Shown here: piece after piece, positions 9,030 through 34,366 of the stretch
Numbering within the stretch: position 1 is the first letter of the stretch
Layout: every line of letters starts with the position of its first letter
Assembly (NCBI RefSeq): GCF_000154725.1
Contig: NZ_DS544873.1
Span: 1,007,218 to 1,066,923 of the forward strand
DNA from: Kordia algicida OT-1
GTDB taxonomy: Bacteria; Bacteroidota; Bacteroidia; Flavobacteriales; Flavobacteriaceae
Length of the DNA: 59,706 bases
Direction of reading: 5' to 3'
Translations under genes and position numbers: made by a program
The notes under the pieces: model-generated
What the model saw: the letters and a program-made list of their open reading frames with translations, nothing else
The model's database searches: none
Told to the model about the DNA's origin: nothing

Positions 9030-9114
9030 GGAGAAATGGCAGAGTGGTCGAATGCGGCAGTCTTGAAAACTGTTGACTGTAACAGGTCCGGGGGTTCGAA
9101 TCCCTCTTTCTCCG
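9030..9114 (+). tRNA. tRNA-Ser (anticodon UGA)
   Basis: An 85-nt class II tRNA. The acceptor arms GGAGAAA and TTTCTCC pair, G9114 is the discriminator, the anticodon loop is CTTGAAA with TGA, a long variable arm is present, and the T loop is GGTTCGAATCC. CCA is not encoded. A long hairpin terminator follows 25 bp later. Confidence 0.97.
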
Positions 9115-9138
9115 CAAACAAGCGCAAGGCTTGAAAAG

Positions 9139-9171
9139 AAAAACCACCAAGTTTACTTGAGTGGTTTTTTT
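9139..9171 (+). terminator. Terminator after tRNA-Ser
   Basis: AAAACCACCAAGT and ACTTGAGTGGTTTT form a long stem with one bulge and a TT loop, followed by a T run. Confidence 0.85.
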
Positions 9172-9223
9172 GATTTTAAGACTTTGGCATTTGCAAAATG
9201 CTGTAAGAGGGAGATTGGAACAA

Positions 9224-9243
9224 AATCCCTCTTTCTCCGCAAA
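9224..9243 (+). repeat. Duplicate of the tRNA-Ser 3' end (possible att remnant)
   Basis: AATCCCTCTTTCTCCGCAAA at 9224-9243 is identical to 9099-9118, the T-arm and acceptor 3' strand of tRNA-Ser plus its flank. The copies are 125 bp apart. The second copy also has its own terminator directly downstream. It may be an att site left by a lost integrative element or the tail of a deleted tandem tRNA gene. Confidence 0.75.
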
Positions 9244-9280
9244 ACCCTTGTAAACGAAATGTTTATAAGGGTTTATTTTT
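9242..9280 (+). terminator. Terminator after the duplicated tRNA tail
   Basis: AAACCCTT-G-TAAAC pairs with GTTTA-T-AAGGGTTT (9242-9255 and 9261-9274) around a GAAAT loop, followed by ATTTTTT. Confidence 0.75.
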
Positions 9281-9329
9281 TAGGTGTAAAAAAAGGTGTA
9301 CGTATTAGCTTTATTAAACTATGTTTCAA

Positions 9330-9722
9330 TCAATCCACCATCTTTACAGGATTCTTGTTGTCATCAATCGCGACGAAGGTAAATAGTCCTGTCACTGCTT
9401 TTTTGCGTCCTTCTTCATACATATTTTCCATAAAAATATCTACTTGTACCACACAACTCGTATTTCCGACTTTAATAACATTAGCAATTAATTCTACCAA
9501 AGTTCCTTGCGGAATGGGTTCTGTAAAATCAATCTTATCGGTAGAAACAGTCACAACTTTCTTTCTACTAAAACGTGTTGCGCAAATAAACGAAGCTTCG
9601 TCCATCATATGTAATGCAGTTCCTCCAAACAACGTATCGTAATGATTGGTAGTATTGGGAAACACCGCTTTAAAAATGTGTGTTTCAGAATTTTTAATGC
9701 GTTCGGTAATTTGTGGATTCAT
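9330..9722 (-). CDS. Acyl-CoA thioesterase (hotdog fold, YciA/BFIT-like)
   Basis: A 130-aa single hotdog-domain protein. The segment TNHYDTLFGGTALHMMDEAS carries the conserved hotdog active-site region, a G-G-x-x-[LM]-x-x-[IM]-D-E pattern with the catalytic Asp. VSTDKIDFTEPIPQGTLVEL is the second strand block typical of acyl-CoA hydrolases. It would cleave acyl-CoA thioesters to free acid and CoA in the cytoplasm; chain-length specificity is unknown. It is monocistronic and converges on the tRNA locus. Length is normal for the family. Confidence 0.9.
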   Translation of the reverse strand: MNPQITERIKNSETHIFKAVFPNTTNHYDTLFGGTALHMMDEASFICATRFSRKKVVTVSTDKIDFTEPIPQGTLVELIANVIKVGNTSCVVQVDIFMENMYEEGRKKAVTGLFTFVAIDDNKNPVKMVD

Positions 9723-12707: not shown

Positions 12708-13514
12708 CTACTCCAAAGTTTCCAACAACTCCAAGGCTTCTGAGTATTTATAATTTGTTTTTAAAGCCGTAATTTTCTTTAAAGTTTCTTGTAAATTCTT
12801 AGCATCTTCTGTTTTCAAATACACCAACGCCATATACCACAATCCTTTGCTAGCATCAATTGCATCACTTTCAGAAATAGTCTTAAATACCTGCAATGCT
12901 TCCGAATTTTGATGGAGTTGCACCAACGAAAATCCTTTGTAAATCCTCACGTTTGTTTTGTCTGTCGTAGCAGAATTTAAAAAGCGATCAGCTACCAAAA
13001 TACACTTTTGATATTCACTATTTTTATACAAAAGTTCAATTTTTTCTTTTATATCTGTCGTATTTTGATCTTGTACAATAAACGAAGGTGTATCATTCCA
13101 AGTTCCGTATTGTGTGTACAATTCATCTAAAGTTGGTTGCGTAGTAAATTGATATACGATAGTTAGCAACAACGCAATACAAGCAGCAGCAAGCGGAAAC
13201 CAATATTTTTTTAAAGTGAATGTTTTCTTTTCTGTTTCAAAAGCAGTGTCAGCATGTTGTTGCAATTTCTCTTTAAAATCAAGTACATCAACTTCTTGAT
13301 ACCATTTTTGAACAGTATGGTAATGCTTACTCGTATTTTTATGTGCAAACCAATCTTTTTCACTTATGGCTTGTTGTAACTGTTTGCTAAGCGTTACATA
13401 TTCTTTCAGTTCAGGTTGATCTTTTTGCTCCTGTTCAAAGTCAAGAAGCTCCTCAGGTGTCATTTCACCTTTTAAGAAACGTTCGGTTTTTAATTCCCAA
13501 AGAAAATCTTCCAT
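12708..13514 (-). CDS. Membrane anti-sigma-like protein with periplasmic TPR-type helices
   Basis: A 268-aa protein encoded 2 bp after an ECF sigma gene, which is the usual place for a cognate anti-sigma factor. Residues 1-100 are hydrophilic and would be cytoplasmic. One transmembrane helix spans about 104-123 (YWFPLAAACIALLLTIVYQF), with KK on its inner side. Residues 124-268 are helical, with TPR-like spacing (SEYQKCILVADRFL, IYKGFSLVQLHQ, KGLWYMALVYLKTED), and should be periplasmic. No zinc-binding HxxxCxxC of the ZAS type is visible. I infer that the N-terminal part holds the sigma factor and the TPR part senses or binds a periplasmic signal, perhaps products of the divergent protease operon. 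Confidence 0.75.
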   Translation of the reverse strand: MEDFLWELKTERFLKGEMTPEELLDFEQEQKDQPELKEYVTLSKQLQQAISEKDWFAHKNTSKHYHTVQKWYQEVDVLDFKEKLQQHADTAFETEKKTFTLKKYWFPLAAACIALLLTIVYQFTTQPTLDELYTQYGTWNDTPSFIVQDQNTTDIKEKIELLYKNSEYQKCILVADRFLNSATTDKTNVRIYKGFSLVQLHQNSEALQVFKTISESDAIDASKGLWYMALVYLKTEDAKNLQETLKKITALKTNYKYSEALELLETLE

Positions 13515-13516
13515 GC

Positions 13517-14071
13517 TTAGTTATTTTTAAGTTTTTTAAATCGAACATCAGCTTGTATCATTTTAAACAATTTAGTTTTGCACCGAAAAGCTTTCTGTCG
13601 CGCTGCATTTTCATTAGAAAACTTTAGTTTCTTTGAAATTTCCGCATACGAAACCTTGGCAAGTGTTAGCTTAATGATGGTTTTACAAGTTTCTTTGAGC
13701 GATTCAAGTTTTTCTTTAAAAAGATTCCATTGCAATTGTTCTATGTGAAAACTTGCCAAATCAGGGCTTTCATCAACAAGAGTTACCGTATTTAGTTTTG
13801 TTACGCTATTTTGTGAAGATTGTTTTATCCAGAAGTTTTTACACACCGTAAATAGGTAATTGTCAAAATTAGAAATCTGTAACTTTTCCTTTTTTAGCAA
13901 TGTGTAAAGAACCAATAATCCATGCTGAAAAACATCTCTTGCTTGTTCTTTAGTTCCACTATTTTTTAAGATATAAGCTTCAACTCCGAAGTAATTTTTA
14001 GCGTATAGTTGCTTTAGAAAAGCAGCGTCTCCATCTATAAATTTACGAATACAATCTTCGTTTTCAGTCAT
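13517..14071 (-). CDS. ECF-type RNA polymerase sigma factor
   Basis: A 184-aa sigma-70 family protein with region 2 at about residues 8-90 (core-binding and -10 recognition, around YAKNYFGVEAYILKNSG and DVFQHGLLVLYTLLK) and region 4 at about 118-178. The latter has an HTH around LTLAKVSYAEISKKLKFSN. Region 3 is missing, as is normal for ECF factors. It is followed 2 bp later by the membrane anti-sigma-like gene. It is divergent, 132 bp apart, from the lipoprotein-subtilase-CHAT genes, which are likely targets. Confidence 0.9.
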   Translation of the reverse strand: MTENEDCIRKFIDGDAAFLKQLYAKNYFGVEAYILKNSGTKEQARDVFQHGLLVLYTLLKKEKLQISNFDNYLFTVCKNFWIKQSSQNSVTKLNTVTLVDESPDLASFHIEQLQWNLFKEKLESLKETCKTIIKLTLAKVSYAEISKKLKFSNENAARQKAFRCKTKLFKMIQADVRFKKLKNN

Positions 14072-14203
14072 TTAAAAAGCTATGATTATTTTTTTAATAA
14101 AAAAACCGTAACAAAGATGCTAAAAATACTCTACATGGGAAAACAGCGTCTAATATCTAACACGCAAAACCAAAGTTAGATACCATTTAAAATTAACCTT
14201 ATT

Positions 14204-14821
14204 ATGAAAAAAACCATTTTTATCATCATCATCTTTGCTTTCTGTAGCTGTAGTACAGACCATGAAGAAACCTTTCAAGAAGAAGCGCGAACAGTTGCTG
14301 AAACCGTAGTAAACAAAACAAATTATAGCTACGATCAATGGGGAAGTATCAATACATACGATCCTATAAACAGAGAAGCGGTAAAGATTTGGATGACGTA
14401 CGGACATTACAATTCATTGCGAAGACAAGGAACTCAAGGCATGGAAATTTTAAAAGTTCCGAACCAACCCATATATGCAATTGACGCAGGACGCATGAAT
14501 GTTGGAATGCCAAATATTGGTAATCCGTTGCCTTTTGCAGGATGTAACTATTTTAATGACTTGGCAAATAGTTCGTCTCCTTGGGCATTACAGTTTTTAG
14601 CGGGCGAAATTACGTTAGCACAAGCGATTGTACATGAACAAGTTTCGCAACAAGCCGAGGCAAATGCTACTGGGCAAGCAATTTCTTTTGTGATATGTTA
14701 TGATGGTGTTGTAGTTGGATTTGTATGTGCCGTTCCTGATGATACGGGATTTGTGTCAAATCCTGGAGGTGTCGCTAACGAACCCGGAGAATTATCAGGT
14801 TCTTGGAGTCCAGCAGAGTAA
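14204..14821 (+). CDS. Uncharacterised lipoprotein next to the sigma/protease genes
   Basis: A 205-aa protein with a lipoprotein signal peptide (IIIIFAFCSCSTD; the lipid-bearing Cys is residue 14 or 16). The mature part has no domain I recognise. Features are paired aromatic/Gly-rich segments (DQWGSINTYDPINREAVKIW), a central KVPNQPIYAIDAGRMNVGMP, and a Pro/Gly-rich tail without clear structure. It is the first gene of the strand that also encodes a subtilase and a TPR-CHAT protein, and may be a substrate, ligand or partner of those proteases; that is inference from position. Its TAA stop is the first part of a 162 bp repeat. Confidence 0.75.
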   Translation: MKKTIFIIIIFAFCSCSTDHEETFQEEARTVAETVVNKTNYSYDQWGSINTYDPINREAVKIWMTYGHYNSLRRQGTQGMEILKVPNQPIYAIDAGRMNVGMPNIGNPLPFAGCNYFNDLANSSSPWALQFLAGEITLAQAIVHEQVSQQAEANATGQAISFVICYDGVVVGFVCAVPDDTGFVSNPGGVANEPGELSGSWSPAE

Positions 14822-14982
14822 TACCAATTTACATTTAAAATGGTGTTTTGGATACGAAGTTGCTTTGGCAGTGTAGAACGCTGTGAATCCTTTGCATAGC
14901 CGTAGCTACGGAAAGTATTCGCAAGAAACTAGACTGCCAAATGAACGAGTTTATAAACATCATTTTATGTGTAAAGTGGTAT
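14821..14982. repeat. Palindromic interspersed repeat, copy A (162 bp)
   Basis: It starts ATACCAA on the last base of the upstream TAA stop and ends TGGTAT, so the termini are inverted. Inner arms TTTGGCAGTGTAG (14864-14876) and CTAGACTGCCAAA (14929-14941) pair with one mismatch around a central perfect palindrome CCGTAGCTACGG (14900-14911). Copy B (29736-29895) is the same element in the opposite orientation, with high identity along its whole length. There is no coding capacity. It resembles a MITE or a large REP-type hairpin element. Confidence 0.85.
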
Positions 14983-14992
14983 AATATACAAA

Positions 14993-15018
14993 CAAAGCTC
15001 TTGTTTTAAAGAGCTTTG
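14993..15018. terminator. Hairpin after repeat A
   Basis: CAAAGCTCTT and AAGAGCTTTG form a perfect 10-bp stem with a six-base loop. The following T tract is weak, so it may act as a partial terminator between the lipoprotein and subtilase genes. Confidence 0.6.
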
Positions 15019-15054
15019 CTATCTTTCTCCTACTAAAACCTAAACGTTTATATC

Positions 15055-16278
15055 ATGAAAAAAATAATATATTTTATACTTATTAGCTGTTTAATGAGTT
15101 GCGAATCTGAAACGATTGAAGCATCAACAGTACACGAATCATTCACAAATCAAAAATCATCTGGCGGAACAACAATTCCTAAAGACGAAACAGTTGTCAT
15201 CCGATTTACGGAAGGTTTATCCGCTACAGCGAAAGCCATCATACGAGCAAAATACGGCGTTATTGCCTTTGAAAATTGCTCTTGTGGAGATAAGAATTTA
15301 GAATCATGGGATTTAGAAACCATTTACGAAGGCGCTACCATTGAAGAACGCGTGACTTCTATGGAACAAGACCCAGAAATGGAAGGCGCAGATTTTAATT
15401 TTGATATCAATATTTCGAGTCAAGTACCTAATGGTGTTGTCGGAACGATACATTATCAAGATGTATTGCCAAAAATAAAAACACAAAAAGCGGCTGTAAC
15501 TATTGGTGTGTTAGATACAGGAATTGATCCTACGTACTTCGGATTTCAGCAAGCGTTTTTGCACAATAGCGCGTTAGATGAAGAAACGTGTAGCGATGAA
15601 TTTTTTGGTTGGAATTTTGTCGAAAATAATAATCTATCTTTTGATGACAACGGACACGGAACAATGGTCAGTTATTTGGCATACGAACAACTTGAAAATA
15701 CAGGAACTAATTTTGAGATTATACCCGCAAAAGCTTTTGATGCAGCAGGAAAAGGTTCCTTGTTTCAAATAGGTTGTGGGTTGAGTTATCTTATTCAGAA
15801 AAAAGTAAATATTATCAATATGAGTTTTGGATGGACAGAAACTCCCTCAACAGTTATTGAAAGTTATATTAAAGAGACAGAACGCGATATTTTAATGGTA
15901 ACTTCCGCAGGAAATACAGGTGCTGATAATGATTTGACTCCACATTTTCCATCGTCTTACACCACGGCAAATGTGCTGTCAGTAACGGCTGTAGATGGTG
16001 AAATACCGCCAAATCTGGTTTTGTCGCTTTCCAATTATGGTTTTGTATCTGTTGATATTGCTGTAAAAGGCATAGGAATTCCGTTTTATTCAGCACCAGA
16101 AACAGCTCCAATTTCAATTACAGGGTCTTCGTATTCGTCAGCAAAAACTGCAGGATTTGCAGCATTAAAATACCAACAAGGAATGTCTGTAGATATGTTA
16201 TATCACAGGATTTTACAAGATAAAATTCAATCGAGCAGTCTAAACCAAATTAAATATGCTTCTTATTTAGATTTATAG
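15055..16278 (+). CDS. Subtilisin-like (S8) serine protease, lipoprotein
   Basis: A 407-aa protease with a lipoprotein signal peptide (ILISCLMSCESE). An inhibitor-I9-like propeptide is suggested at about residues 40-110 (TVVIRFTEGLSATAKAIIRA). The catalytic triad is visible: Asp in IGVLDTGID (~154), His in DDNGHGTMVS (~201) and Ser in TGSSYSSAKTAG (~359). The oxyanion Asn would be in MVTSAGNTGAD. It is probably anchored in the periplasm or on the cell surface. TPR-CHAT follows 39 bp later, and the pair probably forms an operon divergent from the ECF sigma genes. Confidence 0.92.
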   Translation: MKKIIYFILISCLMSCESETIEASTVHESFTNQKSSGGTTIPKDETVVIRFTEGLSATAKAIIRAKYGVIAFENCSCGDKNLESWDLETIYEGATIEERVTSMEQDPEMEGADFNFDINISSQVPNGVVGTIHYQDVLPKIKTQKAAVTIGVLDTGIDPTYFGFQQAFLHNSALDEETCSDEFFGWNFVENNNLSFDDNGHGTMVSYLAYEQLENTGTNFEIIPAKAFDAAGKGSLFQIGCGLSYLIQKKVNIINMSFGWTETPSTVIESYIKETERDILMVTSAGNTGADNDLTPHFPSSYTTANVLSVTAVDGEIPPNLVLSLSNYGFVSVDIAVKGIGIPFYSAPETAPISITGSSYSSAKTAGFAALKYQQGMSVDMLYHRILQDKIQSSSLNQIKYASYLDL

Positions 16279-16317
16279 TATTTTAGAATCTTCTACTAAA
16301 AAAAAGAAGATTTGATA

Positions 16318-19050
16318 ATGAGCCTGCAAAAAGTGAAAAACAATCGTATTATACAATATATCGTGCTCACTTTTTGTTTGCTTTTTTTTATGTGTACGGT
16401 AAAAGCGCAACATAATGCACAAAAAGTTTATGATTCTGTCATGCAACTTCAAATCTCTCAGAAAGAAAAAATTACTGCGTTTCAAACTACAATACTTCAT
16501 AAGGAATACTCAAACAAGGAAACGCATGCAGACGTTTGCTATTTGGTTGTAAAACTATGTAATAAAGTGGACAAACCAAGCGCAATTCCTTTCCTGAAAA
16601 AAGAATTGGCACTGCGTAAAAAGTATGTTTCATCTAATAAAAACCTCATAGCGAGAACGTACTATAATTTAGGATATTTCTATTGGTTTCAAGAAGATTA
16701 CAACAATGTGCTGACCTATCATGACAGTTTGTTATCTTTTGTAAAAGTAAAAGATAAAAGGAGTGGAAAAGCCTATGAACTTATGGCGCGTGTTTACAAA
16801 AACACTGGCGATTATCAACGCGCATTGGATTATTTTGACCAAGCAGAAACTATCTTTAAAAAAGTGGAAGCTAAAAGAAATCTATTAGGTGTTTATATCA
16901 ATAAATTGACCTTGTTTGTTGAGCAAAAATACCGCTTTACGAATAGTGATTTTAAAGCTTTGGAAAGTGAAATTTTAAATTTTGCGGATAAAGCAAAGGC
17001 TACGGAAAAACAGCGATTGATGATCTTATTCAATCTAGGAACAATACTATACCACAGCCAGCAAAACAAAACTTCCTTATCGTATTATAATAAGTCTTTA
17101 CTAATTGCAGAAAAAATAGAAGATTCTCTAAAAATTGCTCAAATCTACATGAACAAAGCGTTGGTTTATGTTAAAAAATCGGAACTCGACGAAGCACTTT
17201 TATTAAATGAGAAAGCATTGTTGTTTGTTGGAAATGCTGTGGATGAAAAAAGTACTATTTATGATAATTTGGGCGATATTTATGTGCGACAAAAGCAATA
17301 TGAAAAAGGAATAAAATTTTACAATAAGGCTGTGAATGAATTGTTGCCTTTTCATTGGGAAACAAAAGAAAATCTTCCTGATTATGAGAAGATTATAGCT
17401 TCTTCTGATCGAAAGTTTATTTTAGGTTATTTGATTGATAAACAACATGCTTGGCTTCGTTTTTATGAAACTACAAAAAACAAAAAAGACTTATTAGCAG
17501 CAGAACAAACCTTACAATTGATTGATAAAGTAATTGACGATATCTACTTTGAAAGTAAAGAAAAACTATCCAAACTATTTTGGCGGAAAGAAGGAGCGAA
17601 GCTATATGTAAATGCAGTTAAAATCTGTTTTTTACTTAATAATCCCGCAAAAGCATTTTATTATATTGAAAAAAGTAAAGGTGTTACACTTTTAGAAAAT
17701 ATTTCCGCATTTAGCGCAAAGCGAATGGCTAAGTTGCCACAAGAAGTGATAGAGAAAGAGCAAATGCTTTCTCAAAGCGTAAAAAAAATGGAGCAATTGT
17801 TTGTATCTGATAAGAAGAAAGACAGTTTAAAATCACATTATTTTACAGCAAAAGAAAAGTATCATAAATACGTACGTGGGATTGAAAAAGAATATCCTAA
17901 TTACCTTCGGTATCGAACAAGTTTGCCAATAATTGCTACTGAAAAAGTTCAAGAAAGCTTGGCAGAATATGAAGTTGTCATCGCTTATATATTGGGAGAA
18001 GAAGATGGATATGTTTTGTTGATGAATCAAAAGTCGTTGCAAATATATCCTTTGAAAGATTTGAAATCTTTGAAAAGTAGCATAACTGCCTTTCAAAAAC
18101 TATATACCAAACCTTTTGAAACTACAGCAGAAGCAACAAATTTTCAGCAAGAAGGATTTAAAATATATCAGCAATTGTTGCCTTTTTGGGAAAGTACTAT
18201 GTATCAAAAAGCAACCAAATTAACGGTTGTTTCTGATGGAAATATTCATACACTTCCTTTAGAACTATTACCGACTTCAATCTCTAAAAAACTAGAAGAA
18301 ACCTATCTTATACAAGAGAAAGAAGTAAGTTATCGGTATTCGTTTTCATTAGATAGACAAAATGAGTTGAATCGCAGTAACGGAAAACCAGAAAGTACTT
18401 CATTTATGCTTACAAAATTTAAAGATACTACATTGACAAGCTTAAGTACAACTTCTGAAAACGTATTTGAAGGAACAACTTTCTTAAATGAAAATGCTAC
18501 GAAAGAAAGGTTTTTAAAAGCATACAATGAAACTTCACAAGTATATATATCATCGCATGCGGGAACTACAAATACAATTCCTTGGTTGGCAATGTTTGAT
18601 GAAAAAGTATATCCAAATGAGCTTTACTTTTTGAACAATCCGAAGGAACTTGTAGTGTTGAATGCTTGCAAAACATCTGCGGGAATTTTTAATGAAGGTG
18701 AAGGTGTATTTAGTTTGACAAGAGCATTTTTGAATTCAGGTAGTAAAAGTGTTGTGGCTTCTTTATGGAATTTGAATGAAAAATCAGGAATGGAAATCTT
18801 TACAACTTTCCGATCAAATTTAGCCGCAGGACAAACAAAGTCAGAAGCCTTACACCATGCAAAATTGATGTATTTAAAAAAGTATGCAAATACGAGTCAA
18901 AGCTCTCCTTATTATTGGAGCGGAATGGTGTTAACTGGCAACACCGAAGCATTGTCAACCTCTGTAAATATTTGGAAAACTATCGGTTTTGCGATTGTAG
19001 GAATCAGTATTATTTTCTTTTATTTCAAATATCGAAAACGAAGTTATTGA
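16318..19050 (+). CDS. TPR-CHAT protease, periplasmic, C-terminal membrane anchor
   Basis: A 910-aa protein from the ATG at 16318 (a TTG two codons earlier is less likely). It has a signal peptide (IIQYIVLTFCLLFFMCTVKA), tetratricopeptide repeats over about residues 90-330 (NLGYFYWFQEDYNNVLTYHD, LMARVYKNTGDYQRALDYFD, NLGDIYVRQKQYEKGIKFYN), a helical linker, and a CHAT caspase-like domain at ~600-870. The His/Cys dyad is visible: ISSHAGT (~H747) and VLNACKTS (~C784). A final helix (FAIVGISIIFFYF) with a KYRKRSY tail would anchor it. CHAT proteases cleave specific partner proteins when their TPR part is triggered. The target is unknown; the neighbouring anti-sigma-like protein or lipoprotein are candidates. 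Its stop codon lies in the first unit of the tandem array. Confidence 0.9.
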   Translation: MSLQKVKNNRIIQYIVLTFCLLFFMCTVKAQHNAQKVYDSVMQLQISQKEKITAFQTTILHKEYSNKETHADVCYLVVKLCNKVDKPSAIPFLKKELALRKKYVSSNKNLIARTYYNLGYFYWFQEDYNNVLTYHDSLLSFVKVKDKRSGKAYELMARVYKNTGDYQRALDYFDQAETIFKKVEAKRNLLGVYINKLTLFVEQKYRFTNSDFKALESEILNFADKAKATEKQRLMILFNLGTILYHSQQNKTSLSYYNKSLLIAEKIEDSLKIAQIYMNKALVYVKKSELDEALLLNEKALLFVGNAVDEKSTIYDNLGDIYVRQKQYEKGIKFYNKAVNELLPFHWETKENLPDYEKIIASSDRKFILGYLIDKQHAWLRFYETTKNKKDLLAAEQTLQLIDKVIDDIYFESKEKLSKLFWRKEGAKLYVNAVKICFLLNNPAKAFYYIEKSKGVTLLENISAFSAKRMAKLPQEVIEKEQMLSQSVKKMEQLFVSDKKKDSLKSHYFTAKEKYHKYVRGIEKEYPNYLRYRTSLPIIATEKVQESLAEYEVVIAYILGEEDGYVLLMNQKSLQIYPLKDLKSLKSSITAFQKLYTKPFETTAEATNFQQEGFKIYQQLLPFWESTMYQKATKLTVVSDGNIHTLPLELLPTSISKKLEETYLIQEKEVSYRYSFSLDRQNELNRSNGKPESTSFMLTKFKDTTLTSLSTTSENVFEGTTFLNENATKERFLKAYNETSQVYISSHAGTTNTIPWLAMFDEKVYPNELYFLNNPKELVVLNACKTSAGIFNEGEGVFSLTRAFLNSGSKSVVASLWNLNEKSGMEIFTTFRSNLAAGQTKSEALHHAKLMYLKKYANTSQSSPYYWSGMVLTGNTEALSTSVNIWKTIGFAIVGISIIFFYFKYRKRSY

Positions 19051-19866
19051 GAGGTTTCAAAGGAAATACGGTGCTTATTTTAAAGCTTTTTCACAAACAA
19101 GCTAAACAATTTAAAATTCAACATTCAACACTCAGCATTTAAGAATAAGTCTAACAGCAAAGCGATCTAAAAACCAGTATTGAGAATTGAGATATTAGTA
19201 TTGAGAGATTTCAAAGGAAATACGTTGTAAACTTTTAAATATTCCCACAAACAAGCTAAACAATTCAACATTTAAAATTCAACACTCAGCATTCAAGAAA
19301 AAATCTAACAGCAAAGCGATCTAAAAATAAGTATTGAGAATTGAGATATTAGTATTGAGAGGTTTCAAAGGAAATACTGTGTAAACTTTGAAATATTTCC
19401 ACAAACAAGCTAAACAATTTAAAATTCAGCATTCAACACTCAGCATTTAAGAATAAATCTAAAAGCGAAGCGGTCTAACATCCAACAGCGCAGCGATCTA
19501 ACAGCAAAGCGATCTAAAAAAAGTATTGAGTATTGAGATATTAGTATTGAGAGGTTTCAAAGGAAATACGTTGTAAACTTTGAAATATTTCCACAAACAA
19601 GCTAAACAATTTAAAATTCAACATTCAACACTCAGCATTTAAGAATAAGTCTAAAAGCGAAGCGGTCTAAAAATCAGTATTGAGAATTGAGATATTAGTA
19701 TTGAGAGATTTCAAAGGAAATACTGTGTAAACTTTGAAACATTTCCACAAACAAGCTAAACAATTTAAAATTCAACATTCAACACTCAGCATTCAAGAAA
19801 AAGTCTAAAAGCGAAGCGATCTGACATCTAAAAGCGCAGCGATCTAAAAGCACAAAGTGCGCTCTA
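19045..19866. repeat. Tandem array, five copies with a 154 bp period
   Basis: Units starting TATTGAGAG(G/A)TTTCAAAGG begin at 19045, 19199, 19353, 19545 and 19699. Spacing is 154, 154, 192 and 154 bp; the 192 bp unit contains extra copies of a short internal motif of the type AAAGCGATCTAACAGC. Each unit also holds CCACAAACAAGCTAAACAAT and ATTCAACACTCAGCATT. The array fills the gap between two convergent genes and begins inside the last two codons of the CHAT gene. It has no open reading frame of note. Confidence 0.9.
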
Positions 19867-34251: not shown

Positions 34252-34254
34252 ATT

Positions 34255-34324
34255 GTTAGCTGTTAGCTGTTAGCTGTTAGCTGTTAGCTGTTGGCTGTTG
34301 GCTGTTGGCTGTTGGTTGTTAGCT
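34255..34324. repeat. Heptamer tandem repeat, 10 units
   Basis: Five GTTAGCT, three GTTGGCT, one GTTGGTT and one GTTAGCT unit in a row, just after the DUF457 stop. The unit length of 7 is the same as at 12352-12386 but the sequence differs. It is followed at ~34337 by GTCATTTCTGCGAAGGCAGG, a dispersed intergenic motif. Confidence 0.9.
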
Positions 34325-34366
34325 GTTGTGTAATTGTCATTTCTGCGAAGGCAGGAATCTCGTCAT

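Follow-up and report, generated by a model that had tools for sequence, protein, structure and literature searches.

Kordia algicida OT-1 carries a divergent locus for an extracytoplasmic function (ECF) sigma factor, a membrane protein presumed to be its anti-sigma factor, and a membrane-anchored protein that combines tetratricopeptide repeats (TPRs) with a CHAT protease domain (hereafter the CHAT protein). The locus lies in a 59,706-nt stretch of NZ_DS544873.1, called the window below, which is part of a 5.03 Mb chromosome; coordinates given without a locus number are positions in this window. Sigma factor, anti-sigma factor and CHAT protein very probably form one unit. We favor an envelope-sensing sigma switch with the CHAT protein as its trigger, a reading to which we assign a probability of about 0.5. 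The original prediction listed five genes, and all five open reading frames (ORFs) are found where it placed them, between 12708 and 19050, as a minus-strand pair divergent from three plus-strand genes:

12708..13514, minus strand: anti-sigma factor, 268 residues, with cytosolic N-terminal helices, one transmembrane segment and a periplasmic TPR domain (sides predicted)
13143..13199, minus strand: transmembrane helix of the anti-sigma factor, residues 106-124 by hydropathy (105-124 in the structure model)
13517..14071, minus strand: ECF sigma factor, 184 residues (TIGR02937)
14072..14203, no strand: divergent intergenic region, with CCGTAAC at 14106-14112
14204..14821, plus strand: accessory lipoprotein, unmatched by any family model above cut-off; L028 has it and L029 lacks it
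15055..16278, plus strand: subtilase lipoprotein (PF00082, 3.6e-30)
16318..19050, plus strand: TPR-CHAT protein, with a signal-like helix, a TPR solenoid, the CHAT domain and a C-terminal transmembrane segment
18160..18942, plus strand: CHAT domain (PF12770, 1.2e-35)
18556..18558, plus strand: catalytic-type His747, invariant in 39 of 39 proteins
18667..18669, plus strand: catalytic-type Cys784, invariant in 39 of 39 proteins
18970..19026, plus strand: C-terminal transmembrane segment in the CHAT protein, with a basic tail after it (hydropathy)

The sigma factor matches TIGR02937 at 48.8 bits (cut-off 42.9), and Pfam sigma models match it below their cut-offs. It is 84 and 81% identical to its two closest named relatives, both from Kordia isolates. 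The adjacent membrane protein shows no Pfam family match at E-values up to 0.01 and a weak match to the NCBIfam anti-sigma model LIMLP_03685 (1.2e-5, 24.6 bits; cut-off 200). Its relatives form a set of 39 (41 proteins less L025, a duplicate of L008, and the partial L057), in which 34 members match a Pfam TPR model and 10 match NCBIfam NF052375 'anti-sigma factor'. As these family matches are weak, we infer the anti-sigma role with position and topology carrying the rest. By hydropathy and charge, a central transmembrane segment is present in all 39 proteins and the N-terminal flank is the more positive one in 38, and the protein is predicted to span the membrane once, as in RseA-type systems. 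The AlphaFold model (predicted local distance difference test score, pLDDT, 86.9; predicted template modeling score, pTM, 0.57) shows helices ahead of the transmembrane helix and a helical outer half. Its best Foldseek match is the TPR domain 2xev_B (probability 1.00, TMt 0.77, E-value 7.6e-3), with nothing under an E-value of 0.001, and its N-terminus finds nothing convincing among solved structures (best E-value 0.0091). At L027 7421-10692, a sigma paralogue precedes a protein of 908 residues with a beginning similar to the N-terminus of the anti-sigma factor; this protein has no Pfam family match at E-values up to 0.001.

The ORF of the CHAT protein opens at TTG 16312, and ATG 16318 is the likelier start. 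Counted from this ATG, the His/Cys dyad proposed earlier is numbered exactly, H747 and C784. Both residues are invariant in an alignment of 39 CHAT proteins (42 listed, less the partial L037 and L067 and the divergent L063 and L064, plus L011), including L011, L065 and L066, which have no adjoining sigma pair, and they line up with an H and a C in the CHAT chain of Craspase. Hydropathy agrees with the signal peptide and C-terminal anchor that had been proposed: the window protein begins with a signal-like helix and ends with a transmembrane segment and a basic tail. The two terminal hydrophobic segments are found in 33 of the 39 proteins, and the tail after the C-terminal segment has a net charge of +2 or more in 37. 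A cytoplasmic location of the CHAT domain is not indicated; hydropathy and charge predict it on the same, periplasmic side of the membrane as the anti-sigma TPRs. The structure model of the CHAT protein (pLDDT 88.8, pTM 0.84) is closest to Csx29, in line with the likeness to type III-E CRISPR parts noted before, and DdvA (8rot, 8rw5) matches it too.

The unit is defined by co-occurrence. We searched 60 genera of the family and kept anti-sigma matches at 68.8 bits or more; matches at 43 bits or below were dropped (these covered TPRs alone, often within ORFs some 1000 residues long, and two were in the Kordia genome). Of the 23 genomes that encode a full-length anti-sigma factor, 22 also have a CHAT gene, compared with 4 of the 37 without such an anti-sigma factor (Fisher 2e-11). 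Profile searches at the 31 anti-sigma loci outside the Kordia genome find a sigma gene in 29 and a CHAT gene in 27, compared with 0.24 expected within 8 kb under random placement. The order of the genes varies, from collinear sigma/anti-sigma/CHAT (for example in Xanthomarina and Subsaxibacter) to divergent and to convergent, tail to tail. A wider sample of 296 genomes from the phylum contains the anti-sigma factor in 54 (E-value up to 1e-15) and CHAT in 142. There, CHAT lies no further than 15 kb from 58 of 80 anti-sigma matches, and these cases come from seven of nine families; this count leaves out the matches in the Kordia genome (five) and in genome G001 (two). The synteny search proposed at the outset thus finds co-occurrence for sigma factor, anti-sigma factor and CHAT protein. 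Pairwise distances across 33 loci also correlate, with r of 0.765 for anti-sigma/CHAT, 0.679 for sigma/CHAT and 0.816 for sigma/anti-sigma, values reached in 0 of 5000 permutations each (L028 and L029, near copies of the window, were omitted, L024 was paired with the CHAT protein of L010, and L035 is represented by its first CHAT protein). Viral contigs gave no usable stretch.

Four loci have no CHAT gene: L040, L048, L052 and L057, the last on a contig of 5.2 kb. L040 (9273-10580) holds a sigma/anti-sigma pair and, by eye, neighbors like those of Xanthomarina L030, with the CHAT gene missing; it has likely lost this gene. Its anti-sigma match contains one internal stop codon. In L048 (6625-7950) an RseP-like M50 site-2 protease (PF02163, 9e-50) is encoded directly upstream of the sigma/anti-sigma pair, and the genome has CHAT on another contig. 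L048 is the locus that was scanned for an M50 protease, and there it is confirmed.

Within the Kordia genome the arrangement is repeated. The genome encodes seven CHAT proteins, six large and one short, and a sigma/anti-sigma pair is found no more than 10 kb from five of the six large genes (about 0.12 expected under random placement, P about 2e-7); the sixth, at 4785 kb, has neither partner among the paralogue matches nearby. Each of the five modules has CHAT within a run of genes on one strand, with the sigma pair oriented away from it, and the contents of this run differ. L010/L024 and L012 have a subtilase, and in L010 CHAT follows after a 1.3 kb gap; L008 has a lipoprotein and a leucine-rich repeat (LRR) protein that carries a type IX sorting tail; L009 has five secreted-looking ORFs, by eye. 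Since the five modules carry different secreted partners, the question of the signal can be tested module by module.

We propose the following sequence of events. The sigma factor would be held by a single-pass inner-membrane anti-sigma factor whose outer half is the TPR domain, while the CHAT protein, anchored in the same membrane by its C-terminus, would present its TPR solenoid and protease domain to the periplasm. A secreted partner encoded nearby, the subtilase lipoprotein in Kordia and other lipoproteins or secreted proteins elsewhere, would carry or mature the signal. Once activated by this signal, the CHAT protein would cut the periplasmic part of the anti-sigma factor, and host proteases, of RseP type and then cytosolic, would complete the breakdown and free the sigma factor. 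That CHAT makes the first cut is about an even bet, and the contact between the two TPR parts, the nature of the signal and the regulon are likewise presumed.

Several observations weigh against this reading. CHAT is absent within 15 kb of 22 of the 80 anti-sigma matches in the phylum and entirely absent from 6 of 52 anti-sigma genomes. In these 52 re-searched genomes, 58 of 109 CHAT matches are the near partner of an anti-sigma factor; outside the Kordia genome, 8 of 36 CHAT matches in the 60-genera sample have no sigma/anti-sigma pair, and in five of these eight neighborhoods (L063-L067), whose sequence was retrieved, the profiles find neither gene. CHAT is also commoner than the anti-sigma factor among the 296 genomes, so it has other jobs too. 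The phylum counts cover the adjacency of anti-sigma factor and CHAT only, and the matches in family f23 are weak (E-values 6e-16 to 1e-22). The co-divergence partly reflects species ancestry, for which the correlations are uncorrected. The Csx29 match is one of shape that does not cover the whole chain (TMq 0.38, 12% identity), and the anti-sigma N-terminal profile does not list DdvA (8rot) at E-values up to 10; no sequence link between the anti-sigma domains was found. Finally, the subtilase is not general: by profile over about 19 kb, the 27 family loci with CHAT have it in full in two (L044, L046), in part in one (L041) and not at all in 24.

The main rival, which we consider possible but doubtful, makes CHAT an output of the switch. 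The sigma factor would transcribe the CHAT operon, CHAT would cut or process secreted partners such as the subtilase or lipoproteins, and the anti-sigma TPRs would sense something else. In divergent loci CHAT often comes after genes for secreted proteins, all on one strand, which fits this view, and a candidate sigma promoter fits it as well. We searched the gaps between sigma and its divergent neighbor for GTTACC/GGTAAC variants, using 23 gaps (26 loci less L044, L053 and L060, whose gaps exceed 400 bases; L028 and the collinear loci are not included). GGGTAAC, the strongest word, reads away from sigma towards the divergent operon and occurs in 8 of the 23 against a shuffle mean of 0.21, and over 200 shuffles 7-mers of comparable G+C reach at most six gaps; the shorter GGGTAA occurs in 10 (shuffle mean 1.75). 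Among other upstream stretches, 11 of 289 contain GGGTAAC. Five of these belong to the gene across the gap (L024, L050, L055, L056, L058), which leaves 6 of 284. The eight loci are not independent, because they seem to form about two related groups, as judged by locus type and not from a tree. The window itself has CCGTAAC instead, which speaks against CHAT as an output; this variant stands at the start of a block conserved in three Kordia loci. GGGTAAC is a suggestive candidate for a sigma-dependent promoter of the CHAT operon, and this motif is the evidence for the putative sigma control of the divergent operon; its assignment as a -35 element is a guess. Against an output role, too, collinear loci have CHAT directly after the anti-sigma gene with no secreted partner between them, so what stays together is anti-sigma and CHAT rather than CHAT and its cargo.

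In a second alternative, which we regard as unlikely, the pair is a split DdvA, the Myxococcus xanthus protein compared below: CHAT would be a sensory scaffold that binds the TPRs of the anti-sigma factor and controls the sigma factor by conformation, its protease activity being absent or directed only at itself. That 39 divergent proteins all retain H and C suggests that catalysis matters, and the failure of the anti-sigma profile to find homology to the DdvA domain also argues against it.

The subtilase might instead cut the anti-sigma factor, with CHAT secondary. Its D/H/S triad is invariant in five homologues, and across 11 Kordia genomes its gene precedes CHAT, in the same orientation, in 22 of 23 cases, the exception lying 413 bases from a contig end. 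Its rarity in the family loci counts against this role, as do Xanthomarina L030 and Subsaxibacter L031, where the profile finds no match, and we hold it to be highly improbable. A chance neighborhood without function has the variable gene order in its favor and nothing else, and the excess of CHAT over random placement at the 31 loci makes it negligible.

What is constant is sigma factor, anti-sigma factor and CHAT protein; what varies is the secreted neighbors. Of the five-gene unit first proposed, the three core genes are conserved together, and the other two are not. The subtilase, fixed in Kordia, is whole in so few family loci that we rejected it as a core component, and the 14204 lipoprotein, with two close Kordia relatives seen, is kept in L028 but missing in L029 and was rejected likewise. 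The window's own version of the subtilase (68% identity or more) occurs in 3 of 11 Kordia genomes, and its N-terminal stretch looks propeptide-like by eye, with no Pfam match in that stretch. In L041 a 129-residue lipoprotein (9047-9436) occupies the usual place of the subtilase and matches part of the subtilase profile (E-value 4e-10); it is possibly a free-standing subtilase propeptide. PKD-type and lipoprotein genes and a short ORF overlapping the CHAT end are found in at least L050, L055, L056 and L058. In L050, the locus to which Pfam was applied here, they encode a PKD protein and, overlapping the CHAT end, a retropepsin-like aspartic protease (PF13650, 4593-5036); L055, L056 and L058 have ORFs similar to this protease by eye, and a response regulator comes next after the short ORF in L050, L055 and L058, again by eye. 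Genes between sigma and CHAT encode type IX secretion sorting tails (PF18962) in L008 (8192-9724) and L010 (11940-13976), and for this reason the cargo encoded there may leave the cell.

Two repeats were also seen in the window. A tandem array with a 154-base unit spans 19045-19852, starting at the CHAT stop codon, and has no Rfam match. Elsewhere on the chromosome there are three consecutive units at 1900.7 kb, a single one at 5028.9 kb and 27 shorter pieces, one of which sits 4 bases past another CHAT gene (3404128). The heptamer TGTTAGC is repeated in 10.6 copies at 34254-34327.

More tentatively, the modules could represent a class found throughout Bacteroidota, in which the first cut in TPR anti-sigma factors is the dedicated task of an anchored periplasmic CHAT protein (caspase/separase-like) and the constant core is combined with interchangeable secreted sensors (subtilase, a lipoprotein that is only a propeptide, LRR or PKD proteins, retropepsin-like protease). 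The logic that couples CHAT to sigma factors would then be older and general, and the Craspase switch of CRISPR systems would be a single cytoplasmic branch of it. Should CHAT prove to be the trigger, the role of DegS in regulated proteolysis would fall to a caspase-like cysteine protease over much of the phylum, and Craspase would have a plausible ancestor or sister outside CRISPR.

In the RseA/DegS/RseP pathway the PDZ serine protease DegS acts first and RseP follows. This pathway resembles the Kordia system in having a single-pass anti-sigma factor with a periplasmic domain, and it differs in the first cutter, DegS compared with the cysteine protease proposed here. The type III-E system Csx29/Csx30/CASP-sigma likewise combines a TPR-CHAT protein with an H/C dyad, an ECF sigma factor and an inhibitor (presumed in Kordia), and this system is reported to cut the inhibitor of an ECF sigma factor. 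However, it is RNA-guided by Cas7-11, whereas the Kordia CHAT protein is predicted to be periplasmic and membrane-anchored. The locus had been described as free of CRISPR genes, and indeed PF03787, the model for Cas7-11 (RAMP), has zero matches in the Kordia genome at E-values up to 0.01, although 4 of 14 control genomes match, which speaks against a CRISPR link; PADLOC reports nothing beyond two TPR matches. Subtilase and CHAT genes also lie near the sigma gene in ECF54 neighborhoods (e.g. in Geodermatophilus), for which proteolytic control has been proposed; ECF54 is described as working without an anti-sigma factor (PMC8999054), whereas in Kordia the sigma gene is followed by the membrane protein taken as one. 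PMC10028731 and PMC4374960 provided further background. Among open PMC papers a Bacteroidota sigma/anti-sigma/CHAT module was not found, which we do not claim as absence from print. DdvS/DdvA of Myxococcus xanthus (8rot, 8rw5) shares an ECF sigma factor, a transmembrane anti-sigma factor and a TPR-CHAT-like part in which H and C are retained. In both systems this part would lie across the membrane from the sigma factor, by hydropathy and charge in Kordia and by title and chain order in DdvA. However, CHAT is within the anti-sigma chain in DdvA (991 residues), while in Kordia it is a separate, anchored ORF and the anti-sigma factor has TPRs of its own. The prior knowledge of DdvA and of the ECF54 neighborhoods lowers the novelty of the module. 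The Kordia system, in which no RAMP protein was detected, belongs to a known kind of CHAT-sigma switch, as a split variant that is widespread.

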